From positions 124,001 through 188,000 of the forward strand of contig NZ_JAAWWK010000006.1 of NCBI RefSeq assembly GCF_012272835.1: a stretch of DNA of 64,000 nucleotides, written 5' to 3'. The notes under the pieces are model-generated. The model did not search any database, was not told where the DNA came from, and worked only from the letters and a program-made list of their open reading frames with translations. Of this stretch, positions 42,958 to 53,260 are shown one piece after another. Each line of letters starts with the position of its first letter. The stretch's first letter is position 1. Position numbers and translations under genes: made by a program. The stretch comes from Spongiibacter thalassae (lineage in GTDB: Bacteria > Pseudomonadota > Gammaproteobacteria > Pseudomonadales > Spongiibacteraceae).

Positions 42958-43536
42958 ATGCGCCGCTTACCGCTCTTTTTTCGCTCGGGCTGGCTGATAG
43001 CAGCCTGCCTCCTCAGCGCTTGTACCACCCTTCCCCCCGCGCAGCTGGGGGAAAGCTGGCAGCTAAAGGGTCGTATTGGCCTTTGGCTGGATAACCAGCA
43101 GGAAAGCAGCCAGGTAGACTGGCTGCAATGTGGCGACAATTACTCCCGCATTCGCCTTACCGGCCCGATGGGTGTCGGCGGGGCTGAAATCATCGCGACC
43201 GCGAAAACCGCCACCCTCAACTATAAGGGCGATATCCGTCACGCAGCCAACGCCGAAGCACTGGCCAGTGATATCGGCTGGCCCATCCCCGTCTCGGCCC
43301 TGCGCCACTGGTTGCGCGGCCGCCCGGCGCCAAACGGCGAAATCGCCGCGCGCATCTCTCCCAACGGTCAGATCACTGAATTACAGCAGCTGGGCTGGAG
43401 CCTTCAGTTCAGCTACCACAACGCCGCCGATGGTGACCCCCTGCCGCAAAAAATCGACGGTCGCAGCGACTTTGCACGACTGAAATTGATCGTTAAACAA
43501 TGGCAAAACGCACCACAGGAATGTAGTCAACGGTGA
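42958..43536 (+). CDS. lolB: Outer-membrane lipoprotein receptor LolB
   Basis: Receives lipoproteins from LolA and inserts them in the outer membrane; itself a lipoprotein. The 192 residues have a signal peptide with lipobox LSAC (Cys22), then the Lol fold with [20 protein letters not shown] and a conserved LTGPMGVGG loop. It starts one base after the TPR gene stop and overlaps ispE by four bases. Confidence 0.93.
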
Positions 43537-44375
43537 CACAACTGACCTTGCCCTGTCCGGCCAAAATCAATTTATTCCTGCATATCACTGGCCAGCGCGC
43601 CGACGGTTACCACGAACTGCAGACCCTGTTCCAACTACTCGACCACGGCGACACCCTGTATTTGCACAGCCGCGACGACAGCGCACTGCGCTTTACCAGC
43701 AAACTGCCGGGCGTGACCGACAGTACCAACCTGATAATGCGCGCCGCGCGACTGCTGCGCGAATACAGCGGCTGCCATCATGGTGCTGATATCGCTATCG
43801 ACAAAGTATTGCCGATGGGTGGCGGAATCGGCGGCGGCAGTTCAGACGCTGCCACCGCCCTGCTAGGGCTAAACCATCTCTGGCAGCTGGGCCTGAGTAC
43901 CGAAGAACTCGCGCGACTGGGCTTGCAACTTGGCGCCGACGTACCTGTGTTCATCCTCGGACGCACCGCCTGGGCCGAGGGCATTGGCGAACAGCTGACG
44001 CCAATAGACACCCCTGAGCGCTGGTATTTTGTACTCCGCCCACCCTGCGAAGTGGCCACGGCTGAAATTTTTTCACATGAACAATTGACACGCGATACCT
44101 CTCCCATCAAAATAGCGGCCTTTCTTGAGGGGGCCACCGGAAACAGCTGCCAGGAACTTGTTCGCAGACTGTACCCGGATGTTGATAAAGCCTTGATTTG
44201 GCTGGATCAATTTGCACCTGCGAGGCTGACTGGAACCGGTTCTTGCGTGTTCGCCAGCTTCGACAACAAGAGTGCAGCCACTGCTGTGTTAGAGGAAATG
44301 CCAAAGGGCATGACTGGCTTTGTCGCCAGGGGCGTAAACCGCTCTCCGCTACACACAACACTGGATATTGCATAA
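43533..44375 (+). CDS. ispE: 4-diphosphocytidyl-2-C-methyl-D-erythritol kinase
   Basis: GHMP kinase of the MEP isoprenoid pathway. The 280-residue product begins [20 protein letters not shown] and contains the ATP loop [14 protein letters not shown] and the third GHMP motif [12 protein letters not shown]. The start is GTG, overlapping the lolB stop (GTGA). tRNA-Gln begins seven bases after its stop and may be processed from the same transcript, an arrangement known from Pseudomonas. Confidence 0.95.
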
Positions 44376-44382
44376 CGACTAT

Positions 44383-44457
44383 TGGGGTGTCGCCAAGCGG
44401 CAAGGCACTGGGTTTTGATCTCAGCATTCGTAGGTTCGAATCCTACCACCCCAGCCA
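44383..44457 (+). tRNA. tRNA-Gln (TTG anticodon)
   Basis: 75 nt including an encoded CCA. Acceptor TGGGGTG pairs with CACCCCA, the anticodon stem CTGGG/CTCAG holds the loop with TTG, and the T-arm is GTAGGTTCGAATCCTAC. It follows ispE by seven bases. The last 18 bases (44440-44457) are repeated twice downstream at 169-bp intervals. Confidence 0.97.
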
Positions 44458-44798
44458 TTTTTACAGAGCGCCATGTATCATCGGCACTCTGATTGGGAAA
44501 GGCATTACAATGCCCAACCGGTAGGATCGAACCAAGGTTCGACAAGTGCTCAGCACTTAGGCATCGCGCAGCGATGGCTGAAAGCCAAGGGCCGTAGGCC
44601 CGCAGCCCATCCTACCACCCCAGCCATTTTTACAGGGCGCCATGTACGATCGGCACCCTGATTGGGAAAGGCATTACGATGCCCAACCGGTAGGATCGAA
44701 CCAAGGTTCGACAAGTGCAAAGCACTTGGGCATCGCGCAGCGATGGCTGAAAGCCAAGGGCCGTAGGCCCGCAGCCCATCCTACCACCCCAGCCATTT
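44440..44798 (+). repeat. Two tandem 169-bp multi-hairpin units flanked by copies of the tRNA-Gln 3' end
   Basis: The 18-mer ATCCTACCACCCCAGCCA occurs at 44440, 44609 and 44778, exactly 169 bp apart; CCATTT is also shared after each copy. The two intervening units differ at eight positions of about 151. In unit 1 I find successive hairpins: CAGAG/CTCTG (44464-44491), GGCATT/AATGCC (44501-44514), CGAACC-AA-GGTTCG (44528-44541), AAGTGC-TCA-GCACTT (44544-44558), CATCGC-GCA-GCGATG (44562-44576), GCT-GAA-AGC, and GGGCC-GTA-GGCCC (44589-44601). An outer 8-bp stem GGTAGGAT (44520-44527) / ATCCTACC (44609-44616) encloses the last five. The array ends seven bases before a strong terminator, so it should be transcribed with the tRNA. 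No protein-coding potential is evident. Confidence 0.9.
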
Positions 44799-44801
44799 AC
44801 T

Positions 44802-44833
44802 AATTCCCGCCTTATGGCGGGAATTGTGTTTTT
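44802..44833 (+). terminator. Rho-independent terminator after tRNA-Gln and its repeat array
   Basis: A 10-bp stem AATTCCCGCC/GGCGGGAATT with loop TTAT is followed by GTGTTTTT. It ends the ispE/tRNA-Gln/repeat transcript, so prs needs its own promoter in the following 100 bp, where I see no convincing sigma-70 boxes. Confidence 0.85.
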
Positions 44834-44933
44834 AGTCTACGGTTTAATGCCAATCGCGGCGAACCGCGTAATGCAGATAGATTTTCAGCACAGCCACCCG
44901 AATCAACCCTTTCAGCCTAACAGGACAACGACC

Positions 44934-45878
44934 GTGCACAATATGATGGTCTTCAGCGGTAACGCTAACCCCGAGCTCGCGCGCAAAATTGCAGAACAGC
45001 TTCGCCTGCCCCTCGGCGACGCCACCGTCAGCAAGTTCAGCGACGGTGAAGTGTTTGTCGAGATCAATGAAAACGTGCGGGGCGCAGATGTATTCATTCT
45101 GCAACCGACCTGTGCACCGACCAACGACAACCTGATGGAATTGGTTGTCATGGCCGATGCCATGCGTCGCGCGTCAGCCGGCCGTATCACCGCCGTTGTC
45201 CCCTACTTTGGCTACGCCCGCCAGGATCGTCGGGTGCGCTCCCAGCGTGTGCCAATCTCTGCCAAGGTTGTGGCCGACATTATGAGCGGCGTGGGCATTA
45301 ACCGCGTACTGACCGTCGACCTGCACGCCGAGCAAATCCAGGGTTTCTTCGACGTACCGGTAGACAACGTCTACGGCTCACCCGTCCTCCTCGACGACAT
45401 CGCCCGGCAGTCCTACAAAGACCCGATAGTGGTCTCACCGGATATCGGCGGCGTTGTCCGCGCCCGCGCCGTTGCCAAACAGCTGAACGACGCCGACCTG
45501 GCGATTATCGACAAGCGCCGCCCCAAGGCCGGGGTTGCCCAGGTCATGCACATCATTGGTGAAGTTCAGGGCAAAACCTGCATTCTGGTTGACGACATGG
45601 TCGACACTGCCGGCACCCTGTGCAAGGCCGCCGGCGCGCTGAAGGCCCAGGGCGCAGCAAAAGTTGTTGCTTACTGCTCACATCCTGTATTATCCGGGCC
45701 CGCCGTTGACAACATCAACGGCTCCGAACTCGATGAGCTGGTGGTTACCGACACGATTCCACTGTCAGCCGCCGCCAAAGAGTGTGCAAAAATTCGCCAG
45801 CTAACCCTGGCAAACCTGTTGGCCGAGTCAATTCGACGGGTCAGCAATGAGGAGTCGATCAGCGCCCTGTTCCGCTAA
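44934..45878 (+). CDS. prs: Ribose-phosphate pyrophosphokinase
   Basis: Makes PRPP from ribose 5-phosphate and ATP for nucleotides, histidine and tryptophan. The 314-residue product contains [16 protein letters not shown], the catalytic flexible-loop region [29 protein letters not shown] and the PRPP motif [10 protein letters not shown]. The GTG at 44934 has AGGA eight bases upstream and gives the family N-terminus ([15 protein letters not shown]); a longer reading from 44814 starts inside the upstream terminator and is rejected. Confidence 0.96.
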
Positions 45879-49873: not shown

Positions 49874-52800
49874 ATGGAGCTCAAGTTGCGCGCCAGTATG
49901 CTGGCTTTAACGATCGCAGCACTGGCCGGTTGCGGCGGCGGTGGCGGCGGCAGCGGCCCCTCTTTAACCCCGAACAATAACCCCGGCAGTGGCGACGCTG
50001 GCGGCGGCGACACCAGCACCACCGTTCGCTTCGGCTTACCCAGTGGCGGCAATTTCCAGGATGGCGTCATGCAGGCGACCCCTGCCACCCTGGCCTCGGG
50101 CGAATCCGCGCAAATCTTTGTGGCCTTTGTCGATGGTGATGGCATTCCAAGCAACGTCCCCGCCGACGTGACCTTTACCTCGACCTGTATCGCCAATGGC
50201 AAATCGACGATCAACCCCGCAACCGCTGCCAACAGCAACGGTTCCGTGGAAGTGACCTACACCGCAAACGGCTGCAATATCGAAGACAATATTATTGCCC
50301 GCACCCAGATTAACGGCACCACGTTTAGTGCGAACGTGGCCGTAGCCACCAGCATTGAAGTAAGCAATGGCGGGGGCGGCACGGGTGCTGGAGAAAGCCC
50401 GGACACAGATATACGTTTCGGAATACTCTCCGGCGGTAGCTTTAACGCAGGCAAGATCTCCGCCAACTTCACCGACCTGCGCCCCGGCGACACCGTTGAC
50501 TTGGCGGTATCCTTTGTCATGCCAAACGGACAACCCTACACCGGCCCTGCCAATGTCACATTCAACTCCACCTGCATTAGCGCGGGACTTTCCACTGTCG
50601 CACCGGCAAATGTCACCAACACCAACGGATTGATACAGTCGCAGTACACGTCAAACACCTGCAACGGCGAAGACAATATCATTGCAACCGCCAGCGTAGA
50701 CAACGCTACCCTAACCGCTGGCGTTATTCTGACAACGACCGCGGCAAACCGATTCGGCAGTTTCAACGGCGGCCGTTTTAGCGACGGCATCATGAAAACC
50801 TCAGCCTCTAATCTTAAAACCGGAGACACCGCGGCACTGACGGTACAGCTCCTTGACTCACAGCAGAACCCGATCTCCGGACAGAATGTGCGCTTTTCAT
50901 CCGGCTGCGTTGGCACAGGCCTTTCCGCGATCACCTCTGCGGCGGCCACAGGAGCTGACGGCATTGCGACAGCCAACTACACTGCAAGTGGCTGTGATGG
51001 CGACGACATCGTCGTTGCAGAGACCCGCTACGCCGGCCAAGACCTTACCGCAACCGTCACTCTATCCACAGACGCACTGCAGGTTCGATTTGGTTCGTTT
51101 ACCAATGTGACCTTTAACGAGGGCACTATTTCCAGCAGCGAAACCAGCGTTATCGAGTCAGGAGAGACCACGACGTTAACGGTTGATTTTATCGATCAGA
51201 ACGGCGACCGATTCGTTGGCCCCGCAGACGTCTTCTTTACTTCAGCCTGCCTCTCCAATGGATTGGCAGAATTGGCACCGGCTATCGCGACTAACAACGG
51301 CGGCAGCGCAAGTGTCGTCTACACTGCCCGCGGCTGTAACGGCAATGACACAGTAACAGCCACCACCAGCGCTGCGGACAACACCCTTACCGCTACAGTG
51401 ACTCTTGTCACCGACCAACCACCTCTCGGGGCCTTGCAGTTTGTGTCCGCTTCGCCGCAGATTATTGGTCTGAAAGGCACCGAGTCGATCAACGACGAAG
51501 ACAATGAAGACGGCCGGGAAATTGGCCCACAATCGACGGTTACCTTTAAAGTCACCAGCACTTCCGGACAACCCCTACCCAATCAAACAGTGAACTTTGA
51601 GCTGGTCAGCGGAGATACCAATTCCGGCAATGCCGGCCCCGATGCCTTTTTGAATCACAACTCTGCCGCAACCAATGCCGGAGGGCTAGTAACAACCGTT
51701 GTCACGCCCGGCACCACAGCAATGCCTGTGAGGGTTCGCGCGACAACTACACATGAAGGCGCGACTGTTACCGCTCTGTCCAACAGCCTGGCAATTACCA
51801 CAGGCATACCGGACCAGAACAGTATTGATATCAGTGCCTCGTGCCTCAACCCCGATGCGTGGGCCTACAACGGCATTACCACCCGAGTAACCGCGCATCT
51901 TGCCGACCGGTTCAACAACCCGGTTCCAGACGGTACTACTGTTATTTTCTGGACAGAAGGCGGCTCGATCGAAGGCAGCTGCGATACCGGGACCGGCGGT
52001 TCGCCCCACGGAGAGTGCTCGGTACTGCTTAGAAGCCAAAGCCCCCGTCCCGACAATGGCCGCATCACCATTCTCGCCACCGCAATAGGCGAAGAAAGCT
52101 ATGATGACACCAATCCTACCAACGGTCGCTTCGACTCACCAACCACCCCGGGCGATTTGACCACCGGCGAACGTTTTTACGATATCGGCGAACCCTTCCT
52201 TGATATTGAGGAAGACGGCCTGTACGACAGCGTGTACGAGACCTACACCGACACCGACGGCGACAACCGCTACGACAGGATACCGGAGCCCTATTACGAT
52301 ACAGACCGCGACGGCAAGTGGGACAATGTATTTGAAACCTACACCGATACTGACGGCGATGGTCATTACGACCGGTTTACGGAAACTTATACCGACACCG
52401 ACGGCGACGGCAGCTACGACAACGTGTCCGAGACCTATACCGACAGCAACTCGAATGGCGCCTACGACCCCGGCGAACCGTTCAATGATATCAATGGCGA
52501 CGGCAACTACGACCCAAGCCCGGAACCGTTTAATGACATCAACGGCGACCGTAATTTCGACCCCGCTCCCGAGCCTTTTGCCGACACCAATGGCGATGGT
52601 AACTTCGACGAGCGCCCAGAACCCTTCGTCGACCTTGATGATGACGGTAATTTCGACCAAGTAGCCGAACCCTTTAACGACATCAATGGCGACGGCAATT
52701 TTGACGAAAAACCTGAACTCTTTAGTGACTTCGATAACGACAATAGCCGCGACGCTCCAAATGGGGTTTACGACGGATTGTTATGTGACACGAATCGCGC

Positions 52801-53260
52801 AAATCAGGTCTGCAATCCGGCGTCGGACACAGTGTTCGTGAGCGACCGCTTGGTTATCGTCTTTGCTGACGCAACGGCTTTAAACACTGACATCCTGATC
52901 GACCATCCCCGTGACGGCCTTGGCTATATCGCCGCCAACTCCAGCGACGTGATAGACCTCACCAAAGGCAGTGCGACAGTATTGATCAATGTCTATGATG
53001 ACCGCGGGCAACTGCCGCCAGGCGGCACCAAGATCACCGCGTCAACCGACTTGGGCGAAATTCCGGACATTGAATACGATGTGCCAAACACCAATAGCCG
53101 CGGTCCCTATAGCGCGACTTTTCCAATTGCGCCTGGCACTCCGCCAACAGAACCGAAGACCGGCACAATGGCCATTACTGTCGAAACAGCGAACTGCTCG
53201 GAGGTAGAAACTGGCACAGTGACTTACACTCTCCTGATTCCGGTTATTCATAACCCCTGA
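49874..53260 (+). CDS. Large Ig-like (Big_1) repeat lipoprotein with calcium-binding loops
   Basis: A 1128-residue predicted surface lipoprotein: lipobox LAGC (Cys20), then a Gly/Ser/Asn-rich linker to about residue 45. Four related domains of about 110 residues follow (starting near 48, 178, 292 and 403), each opening with RFG and carrying a cysteine pair (for example TSTC...ANGC, NSTC...SNTC). A cysteine-free invasin-like domain (about 519-650) and another Ig-like domain (from about 652) come next. Inside or after the latter is an acidic array of about twelve DxDxDG-type loops (about 765-965), and a final Ig-like domain closes the protein. Invasin/intimin-type domains suggest adhesion or cell-surface scaffolding. 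There is no beta-barrel translocator and no neighbouring secretion gene. ATG 49874 follows GAGGAAGAGGG. Confidence 0.85.
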   Translation: MELKLRASMLALTIAALAGCGGGGGGSGPSLTPNNNPGSGDAGGGDTSTTVRFGLPSGGNFQDGVMQATPATLASGESAQIFVAFVDGDGIPSNVPADVTFTSTCIANGKSTINPATAANSNGSVEVTYTANGCNIEDNIIARTQINGTTFSANVAVATSIEVSNGGGGTGAGESPDTDIRFGILSGGSFNAGKISANFTDLRPGDTVDLAVSFVMPNGQPYTGPANVTFNSTCISAGLSTVAPANVTNTNGLIQSQYTSNTCNGEDNIIATASVDNATLTAGVILTTTAANRFGSFNGGRFSDGIMKTSASNLKTGDTAALTVQLLDSQQNPISGQNVRFSSGCVGTGLSAITSAAATGADGIATANYTASGCDGDDIVVAETRYAGQDLTATVTLSTDALQVRFGSFTNVTFNEGTISSSETSVIESGETTTLTVDFIDQNGDRFVGPADVFFTSACLSNGLAELAPAIATNNGGSASVVYTARGCNGNDTVTATTSAADNTLTATVTLVTDQPPLGALQFVSASPQIIGLKGTESINDEDNEDGREIGPQSTVTFKVTSTSGQPLPNQTVNFELVSGDTNSGNAGPDAFLNHNSAATNAGGLVTTVVTPGTTAMPVRVRATTTHEGATVTALSNSLAITTGIPDQNSIDISASCLNPDAWAYNGITTRVTAHLADRFNNPVPDGTTVIFWTEGGSIEGSCDTGTGGSPHGECSVLLRSQSPRPDNGRITILATAIGEESYDDTNPTNGRFDSPTTPGDLTTGERFYDIGEPFLDIEEDGLYDSVYETYTDTDGDNRYDRIPEPYYDTDRDGKWDNVFETYTDTDGDGHYDRFTETYTDTDGDGSYDNVSETYTDSNSNGAYDPGEPFNDINGDGNYDPSPEPFNDINGDRNFDPAPEPFADTNGDGNFDERPEPFVDLDDDGNFDQVAEPFNDINGDGNFDEKPELFSDFDNDNSRDAPNGVYDGLLCDTNRANQVCNPASDTVFVSDRLVIVFADATALNTDILIDHPRDGLGYIAANSSDVIDLTKGSATVLINVYDDRGQLPPGGTKITASTDLGEIPDIEYDVPNTNSRGPYSATFPIAPGTPPTEPKTGTMAITVETANCSEVETGTVTYTLLIPVIHNP
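52164..52775 (+). repeat. Coding repeat: about twelve DxDxDG calcium-loop units
   Basis: Within the large lipoprotein, units of about 16-18 codons repeat in two flavours: an N-terminal set like ETYTDTDGDGHYDR and a C-terminal set like EPFNDINGDGNFDE. Each supplies acidic residues at the alternating positions used by EF-hand or thrombospondin-type-3 calcium loops. The last unit (DFDNDNSRD) is degenerate. Confidence 0.8.

Follow-up and report, generated by a model that had tools for sequence, protein, structure and literature searches.

The window considered here is a stretch of 64 kb of DNA, part of contig C10 of a 4.4-Mb genome, in which ispE is followed by the gene for tRNA-Gln(TTG), an array of two units, an intrinsic-terminator-like hairpin and prs (Table 1). 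Among the matches listed for IspE, the closest named protein is that of Spongiibacter pelagi, with 67% identity, records nearest to the window's genome possibly being omitted. The last 18 bases of tRNA-Gln (ATCCTACCACCCCAGCCA) start at 44440, 44609 and 44778, and these are all of their occurrences on the + strand of the window; an earlier, sequence-only reading of this DNA had described exactly such a twofold recurrence of the tRNA end at a period of 169 bp. TRF delimits the repeat as 44440-44798 (period 169, 2.1 copies, 95% matches), and the two units differ from each other at eight of their 169 positions. When 44458-44795 is removed, tRNA-Gln is followed by TTTACTAATT and the terminator-like hairpin, which confirms the earlier claim that a deletion of 338 bp restores the tRNA with its downstream sequence and terminator, the latter being a hairpin-like candidate. 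A terminator scan of the locus found no such hairpin on the + strand between tRNA-Gln and the array; it marked three sites in the region, against 2.0 expected by chance from shuffles, and the other two sites are located on the - strand inside the units.

Table 1. Features of the tRNA-Gln locus, with positions in the window.
Feature	Position	Strand	Evidence
ispE	43533..44375	+	TIGR00154, 289.9 bits; end 7 bp upstream of tRNA-Gln
tRNA-Gln (TTG), host gene	44383..44457	+	ARAGORN; Rfam tRNA, 59.5 bits
Recurring 18 bases (tRNA-Gln nt 59-76)	44440-44457	+	repeat positions
TLR/RtT unit 1, 169 nt	44458..44626	+	TRF; RtT 25.4 bits (44505-44626); R2 50.2 bits, E 3.4e-11
TLR/RtT unit 2, 169 nt	44627..44795	+	TRF; RtT 25.6 bits (44674-44795); R2 48.1 bits, E 1.2e-10
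Unit 1 antisense T-arm, GGTAGGATCGAACC	44520..44533	+	sequence, pairing
Unit 2 antisense T-arm	44689..44702	+	sequence, pairing
Unit 1 sense piece, 5' part of the host T-arm plus T-loop (GGTTCGA, to nt 58)	44536..44542	+	
Unit 2 sense piece, 5' part of the host T-arm plus T-loop (GGTTCGA)	44705..44711	+	
Unit 1 core, 66-nt hairpin chain between the copies of host nt 58 and 59	44543..44608	+	
Unit 2 core, 66 nt	44712..44777	+	
Unit 1 tail, identical to tRNA-Gln nt 59-76 including CCA	44609..44626	+	
Unit 2 tail, identical to tRNA-Gln nt 59-76 including CCA	44778..44795	+	
Intrinsic-terminator-like hairpin, then T tract, downstream of the array	44801..44826	+	terminator scan
prs (ribose-phosphate diphosphokinase), downstream neighbour	44943..45878	+	TIGR01251, 403.3 bits; start codon chosen by hand

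Read against its host gene, each unit consists of a 5' part with hairpins, an antisense piece of the T-arm, a sense piece that follows the T-arm as far as nt 58, a core and an exact copy of nt 59-76 with CCA; in the predicted fold, this tail copy closes the unit by pairing with the antisense piece. In unit 1, the antisense piece GGTAGGATCGAACC is the reverse complement of the host's GGTTCGAATCCTACC minus one base. The boundaries of the cores were set by comparison with a core of 76 bp at another locus (L296), which is described in the last section.

The predicted fold agrees with the sequence-only reading, which had seen a chain of short-looped hairpins inside an outer stem of 8 bp. The outer stem is formed by GGTAGGAT (44520-44527 and 44689-44696) and ATCCTACC (44609-44616 and 44778-44785), and all 11 hairpin loops on stems of at least 4 bp in the window units have three or four bases. 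The fold of a single unit has a z value of -5.6, equalled by none of 200 shuffles, and that of the stretch 44383-44840 has a z value of -6.2, equalled by none of 100. Between the units, the positions 10 and 31, which are partners in the predicted fold of unit 1, change jointly from A-U to G-C; the differences at positions 21, 52, 93 and 94 lie inside hairpin loops of the same fold, the one at position 22 opens a loop-closing pair, and position 102 is where the folds of the two units disagree.

Elsewhere in the window, positions 49874-53260 are predicted to encode a protein of 1128 aa whose gene contains 48-bp coding repeats rich in D/G/N (YTDTDGDG type) at 52223-52445 and 52474-52724; an NCBIfam search with it gave no match.

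Assignment to the RtT/TLR family

The TLRs of E. coli K-12 go back to Egan and Landy (1978) and Rudd (1999), both cited in PMC8144298; they possess an end of 18-19 bp that is identical to the end of the upstream RNA gene, and RtT is their tyrT member. According to PMC8144298, TLRs were without a known function before the rRNA-linked work of 2021, in which three rRNA-linked TLRs were found to be transcribed, to be processed and to bind Hfq and CsrA in vitro; RrB was mapped as an RNA of 173 nt with its 5' end 3 nt past the mature 5S, and RNase E was suggested to recognise the copied end. The same paper reports that a claim from 1991, according to which the tyrT repeat acts in recovery from starvation, was later retracted, and on this ground a stringent-response role of the tyrT type was rejected. 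Single statements in further papers concern RtT candidates in Actinobacillus (PMC4986893), the upregulation of RtT in Thioalkalivibrio in the cold (PMC8092127) and a 175-bp VNTR at the rtT RNA in Salmonella (PMC2658671), from which it follows that the copy number of TLRs varies in the relatives of E. coli too.

At its own thresholds, Rfam reports only the two tRNAs of the window. Under an E-value threshold, the RtT model RF00391 matches both units over its full length (1-130 of 130), with the 3' end of the match at the CCA copy, and scores of 25.4 bits (E 0.0093) for unit 1 and 25.6 bits (E 0.0084) for unit 2; the gathering cut-off of 45 bits is reached by neither. An independent test is provided by the covariance model R2, which was built from 40 survey units (alignment A3) that include none from the window's genus and share no 25-mer with the E. 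coli tyrT region. At E <= 1, R2 finds exactly two places in the window, and these are the two units, at 50.2 and 48.1 bits; over the whole genome the units have E-values of 2.4e-9 and 7.9e-9 and are accompanied by two weak matches (E 0.17 and 5). In E. coli, R2 gives 70.5-75.8 bits for the four tyrT/tyrV units and 45.8 bits for the TLR of rrnB. The tail is part of the models R1 and R2, and 16-18 bits are already reached by a bare tRNA 3' end, so that the share of each window match that does not depend on the host sequence is only about 30 bits; R1, which contains both window units, was not used as evidence of membership.

The feature by which TLRs are defined, an end identical to that of the upstream RNA gene, is present in both units with 18 of 18 bases. 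TLRs are found at tRNA or rRNA operons with one to five units per locus, and here two units stand directly 3' of tRNA-Gln; with regard to core sequence and structure, R2 finds the units of the window, of tyrT and of rrnB alike. The array was filed as TLR on these grounds. It is a pair of head-to-tail tRNA-linked repeats (RtT/TLR) of a family that is already known. The statement of the sequence-only reading that no described family could be recognised is wrong; a match to a known Rfam family, which that reading had named as grounds for refutation, was obtained below the curated cut-off of RF00391 and is backed by R2. The array adds a case behind tRNA-Gln to the TLRs, which have been known since 1978 (PMC8144298).

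In comparison with the tyrT and rrnB members of E. coli, the window units are alike in their position directly behind an RNA gene, in the 18-bp end identical to the end of that gene, in their tandem arrangement, in their structured nature and, with regard to tyrT/tyrV, in the order of their parts. The E. coli array has the order tyrT, unit, tyrV, three units, and the end of the annotated rttR of K-12 (171 nt) coincides with the CCA of the unit that comes first after tyrV, just as the RtT match in the window ends at its CCA copy. The window units differ from the E. coli TLRs in their host, tRNA-Gln(TTG). Their core of 66 nt is shorter than that of L296, they contain an extra hairpin between the parts that pair with the acceptor and with the T-stem, and their predicted loops are devoid of GGA. 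RrB has a similarly built core and, unlike the window units, is linked to 5S rRNA, lies between two terminators and binds Hfq and, through GGA motifs, CsrA (PMC8144298). In the E. coli rrnB region (L316, 305-420), the 5S-linked TLR contains the same core, flanked by a GAGTAGG piece and a copy of AACTGCCAGGCATCAAAT.

REP/BIME elements likewise are short hairpin repeats, and a statement in PMC2965389 has it that some enterobacterial BIME-containing leaders resemble rtT. Such an identity would require many dispersed extragenic copies and was rejected, as neither BLAST nor R2 reveals them in this genome. A BLAST search of the 4.4-Mb genome with the unit returned the two units and, besides them, nothing but the tRNA end; the units of the window belong to a single tRNA, whose end they carry, and the genome holds no other convincing copy.

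The tRNA-Gln locus in related genomes and the spread of the family

The tRNA-Gln locus is readable in 15 of 18 genomes of the genus, six of which have units there and nine of which do not. Two units are present in G000, one each in G006, G012 and G013, four in G011, and a single degenerate one in G014. A midpoint-rooted tree of the ispE-side and prs DNA splits the six carriers from the nine non-carriers with 100/100 support; because the two groups form separate clades, one gain or loss suffices within the genus and a fresh insertion at this locus is not needed. In Dasania (L057), two full units and part of a third are found at a tRNA-Gln gene beside ispE. The number of units would shift by recombination between the repeats, which we infer from the 1, 2 and 4 units found in relatives.

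The T-stem of the host reads GTAGG in the window, GCAGG in G011, GGAGG in G014 and GAAGG in Dasania (L057), and each variant is mirrored in the antisense piece and the tail of the host's own units. The tRNA-Gln gene and its units have changed in concert. The units would follow changes in the tRNA either through selection on the helix or through mutual correction between short repeats, inverted and direct.

The search for units in related genomes, in which they occur at tRNA-Gln of relatives, found the family behind other tRNA ends as well. RF00391 matches at E <= 0.1 in 97 of 369 Gammaproteobacteria genomes and above its curated cut-off in 23 of the 369; in 14 control genomes an RtT match was obtained in E. 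coli only. A wider draw from the phylum gave matches in 33 of 249 genomes at E <= 0.01, and the 21 among them that lie outside the window's class all belong to one family (f230). The places examined comprise 128 of the RtT matches, from 65 of the 97 positive genomes. They reach down to about E 0.0014, without any weaker match and, within this range, without three or more of the later units of arrays. A tRNA or tmRNA gene is present within 100 nt upstream on the same strand at 85 of these 128 places; at 17 it is found only farther away (several of these are later array units), and 26 have none, 11 of which are less than 200 nt from a contig end. The hosts of the 85 are tRNAs for Ser (40), Gln (28), Tyr (9), Glu (3), Arg (3) and Val (1) and one tmRNA.

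Among 57 genomes drawn as relatives, the window's own counted, 35 have a match to R1 at E <= 0.01. Within the genus, R2 detects elements at Ser(GGA), Arg(CCG), Met, Leu(TAA), Pro(GGG), Ser(GCT) and tmRNA genes. From 63 R2 matches, four were omitted (E. coli, one duplicate locus, two partial matches), and the 59 that were examined divide into 36 with such a host or tRNA-Gln and 23 without a tRNA within 900 nt upstream; 19 of the 36 have a tail with at least 16 identical bases, and the tails of the tRNA-Arg(CCG) elements have decayed to 9-11 of 18. The sequence examination covered 51 of the 58 matches listed for the genus.

TLRs are consequently no oddity of E. coli: their range takes in the Gammaproteobacteria at large and one further family of the phylum, and many different tRNAs as well as tmRNA serve as hosts. 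Neither this class-wide distribution nor the border at nt 58|59, the host-matched antisense piece and the core-only insertions described below turned up in searches of open-licence papers; older papers, including Rudd 1999, may hold some of this.

A search of viral contigs for a 29-base core pattern gave one contig (IMG/VR, L312). At 2252-2280 it has a TLR-like core, which is followed by an apparent truncated tRNA-Ser-like tail; a tRNA scan detected no tRNA gene in this stretch.

Host-derived parts of the units

The tail contains at least 16 of the host's last 18 bases in 72 of the 85 units and is complete in 65. For 84 units taken without preselection (one unit with a 16-base host end was omitted), the match to the own host amounts to 16.77 of 18, compared with 12.56 when the hosts are shuffled and 15.28 when they are shuffled within the isotype (0 of 2000 in both cases). 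An earlier host shuffle, for which 73 units had been preselected for tails of at least 14 of 18, had given 10.86 of 11 variable bases versus 5.98 and, within the isotype, 9.22. With regard to the antisense T-arm, local alignment of 72 units to the whole host yields 13.5. Arbitrary hosts give 9.3, and hosts of the same isoacceptor taken from a different genome give 12.0, the maxima in 100 shuffles each being 9.9 and 12.4, respectively.

The copy begins directly after A58, and GAGTA or GAATA adjoins it on the side of the element in 47 of 72 units. In 70 non-array units without preselection, every position from nt 59 to 76 shows 81-97% identity to the host; the identity falls past the CCA to 69%, 71% and 66%, and is about 50% from 7 nt on. 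For the 58 non-array units whose tails match in 16 or more of 18 bases, the values are 95-100% and then 81% past the CCA. The duplication extends beyond the CCA by 0-4 nt in 25 of 72 units, by 5-11 nt in eight, by 12-55 nt in 25 and by more than 55 nt in 14; duplications of 12-55 nt often run through the terminator, and those above 55 nt are arrays. A site-specific insertion with one fixed duplication length was rejected in view of these widely varying lengths. Ahead of the core, the sense piece of the T-arm has the sequence GGTTCGAC, and it reads GGTTCA where the host has TTCAA (the Leu, Pro and tmRNA hosts of L273, L268 and L229). The survey shows a sharp border at nt 58|59 of the tRNA and a host-matched antisense piece.

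In an alignment of 42 units, two of them from the window (A1), the covariation score is 0.405, versus 0.181 for shuffled alignments (0 of 500) and at most 0.127 for slid ones. The stems of this alignment contain 56 G-U against 14 A-C combinations, which are cell counts and not independent events.

A probable RNA trailer and a possibly mobile core

We are fairly confident that the array represents two tandem TLR/RtT units that would be transcribed as a 3' trailer of tRNA-Gln and cut out by tRNA-processing enzymes, and that most likely descend from a mobile hairpin core. Transcription as a trailer is suggested by the position of the units between tRNA-Gln and the terminator-like hairpin. Since each unit ends like a tRNA, the enzymes that trim tRNA 3' ends should cut after each tail and would release RNAs of about 160-169 nt, as inferred from E. 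coli with its rttR of 171 nt and its RrB of 173 nt. We know of no job for the released RNA of tRNA-linked members, and it is more likely a tolerated or weakly used by-product of a once-mobile core than a dedicated regulator. The sequence-only reading had raised an RNA element transcribed with the tRNA as one possibility; it gains support from the strong fold, the covarying pairs, the finding of no + strand terminator-like hairpin before the array in the scan of the locus, and the processing of the E. coli relatives (PMC8144298).

Its other suggestion was a small mobile element, and here the core-only copies are relevant. At L296 (G037:C12, core at about 301-384), a core of 76 bp is seated exactly between A58 and A59 of a tRNA-Arg(TCT) remnant; the remnant matches its intact neighbour from about nt 14 to 58 and is degenerate at both ends, and the intact tRNA-Arg(TCT) lies downstream. 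In G011 (L228, 1495-1582), an RtT-type core with its borders is inserted in frame in hsdS (PF01420, type I restriction specificity), so that VTQGL-GSTNSSGTNLNSGSAAGPQGEGMDSSS-NVPMKDSG replaces the VTQGL-DP-NVPMKDSG of a homologue that shares 93% identity with it in the 68 residues before this point. Further core-only copies are situated in open frames or in stretches without an open frame. Of all the evidence, these copies argue most strongly for a core that is mobile or once was.

It seems quite possible to us, if short of probable, that the array is selfish DNA first and foremost: a mobile core would insert at the T-loop (nt 58|59), the tRNA end would be duplicated so that the gene survives, and any RNA would be incidental. 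Next to the lone core in the tRNA-Arg(TCT) remnant and the one that hsdS has and its homologue lacks, this is favoured by the elements behind Gln, Ser, Arg, Met, Leu, Pro and tmRNA genes in a single genus and by units that stand past terminators, which are duplicated in some. The terminator, loop and antisense counts draw on 71-72 units whose tails match in 16 or more of 18 bases; a simple pattern search found an intrinsic-terminator-like hairpin between tRNA and element in 28 of 72, so that co-transcription with the tRNA is not general. GNA loops are typical of stable DNA minihairpins, and GNA triloops make up 92 of 260 survey-unit hairpins, compared with 8 of 546 base-shuffled ones and 21 of 412 where windows were drawn at random from these loci; this enrichment would favour a role at the DNA level. 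Against an RNA that is merely incidental speak the ratio of 56 G-U to 14 A-C in the model stems, which as cell counts are as expected under selection on the RNA strand, and the tandem GA motif of RtT RNA, for which covariation is stated in PMC7657543; moreover, the presence of units at tRNA-Gln calls for a single gain or loss within the genus.

The units separated from their tRNA by terminators, the core-only copies and the GNA loops speak for an origin of the family as mobile DNA. That RNA matters in the resident form is suggested by the surplus of G-U pairs, by the tandem GA motif and by the border at the CCA. We therefore keep both the mobile-DNA origin and the relevance of RNA, and the description as an RNA trailer is the best one for the tRNA-Gln locus; the mobile element of the sequence-only reading is retained for the core, in view of its lone copies and many hosts, without a fresh insertion at this locus. 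Only tentatively would we extend this to the family as a whole and suggest that TLRs are the resident form of a mobile hairpin core of 66-80 bp that enters the 3' ends of RNA genes, in tRNAs precisely at nt 58|59. Insertion or later correction would write the host T-arm into the element three times (antisense, sense from about nt 52 to 58, and sense from nt 59 to 76), the tRNA would survive, the element would match its host, and the processed RNAs would be by-products.

A switch in cis, in which the antisense piece pairs either with the T-arm of the tRNA and blocks its maturation or with the tail as a decoy, so that the units tune the output of tRNA-Gln, is in our view unlikely. The antisense piece is matched to the host in 71 units, with a helix score of 7.37 for the own tail against 5.18 for shuffled tails and 6.07 for tails shuffled within the isotype (0 of 500 in both cases). 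In one Ser unit (G277:C2) it covers the T-arm and the variable arm with 20 of 20 bases, several others coming close, and part of this stretch is without a partner inside the unit. In the window folds, however, the antisense piece is engaged with the tail and the T-arm piece, or partly with the tRNA's own 3' end when the whole trailer is folded, and nine of the 15 readable genus members have no units at tRNA-Gln.

A CsrA-type sponge RNA in the manner of E. coli RrA, RrB and RrF is very improbable. RrB is a TLR that binds CsrA by way of GGA motifs (PMC8144298), and GGA occurs in the loops of 62 of 260 survey-unit hairpins compared with 49 of 546 shuffled ones and 21 of 412 in random windows, but the window units, with their 11 hairpin loops, show it in no loop, and a sponge role was rejected for them; for E. 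coli's 19 tRNA-linked TLRs, the predicted probability given in PMC8144298 is below 0.01. Next to no likelihood attaches to a plain tandem duplication or an assembly artefact without any family, the latter considered in the sequence-only reading: two copies with 95% identity would fit, but relatives carry 1, 1, 1 and 4 units and one degenerate unit at tRNA-Gln, all differing in sequence, unit positions 10 and 31 have changed in a compensatory manner, and R2 matches independently.

Some further core copies were seen in the survey. In G028 (L224), a copy lies in or beside a gene for a Y2_Tnp (IS91-like) transposase, and the copies of L224 and L294 are followed by a closely similar flank. A Pfam scan of L231 gave no match. 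G025 contains a dispersed repeat (L288-L293) with a similar hairpin core, largely common flanks and six places without an open frame across them, and from its sequence it looks like a sister repeat family.
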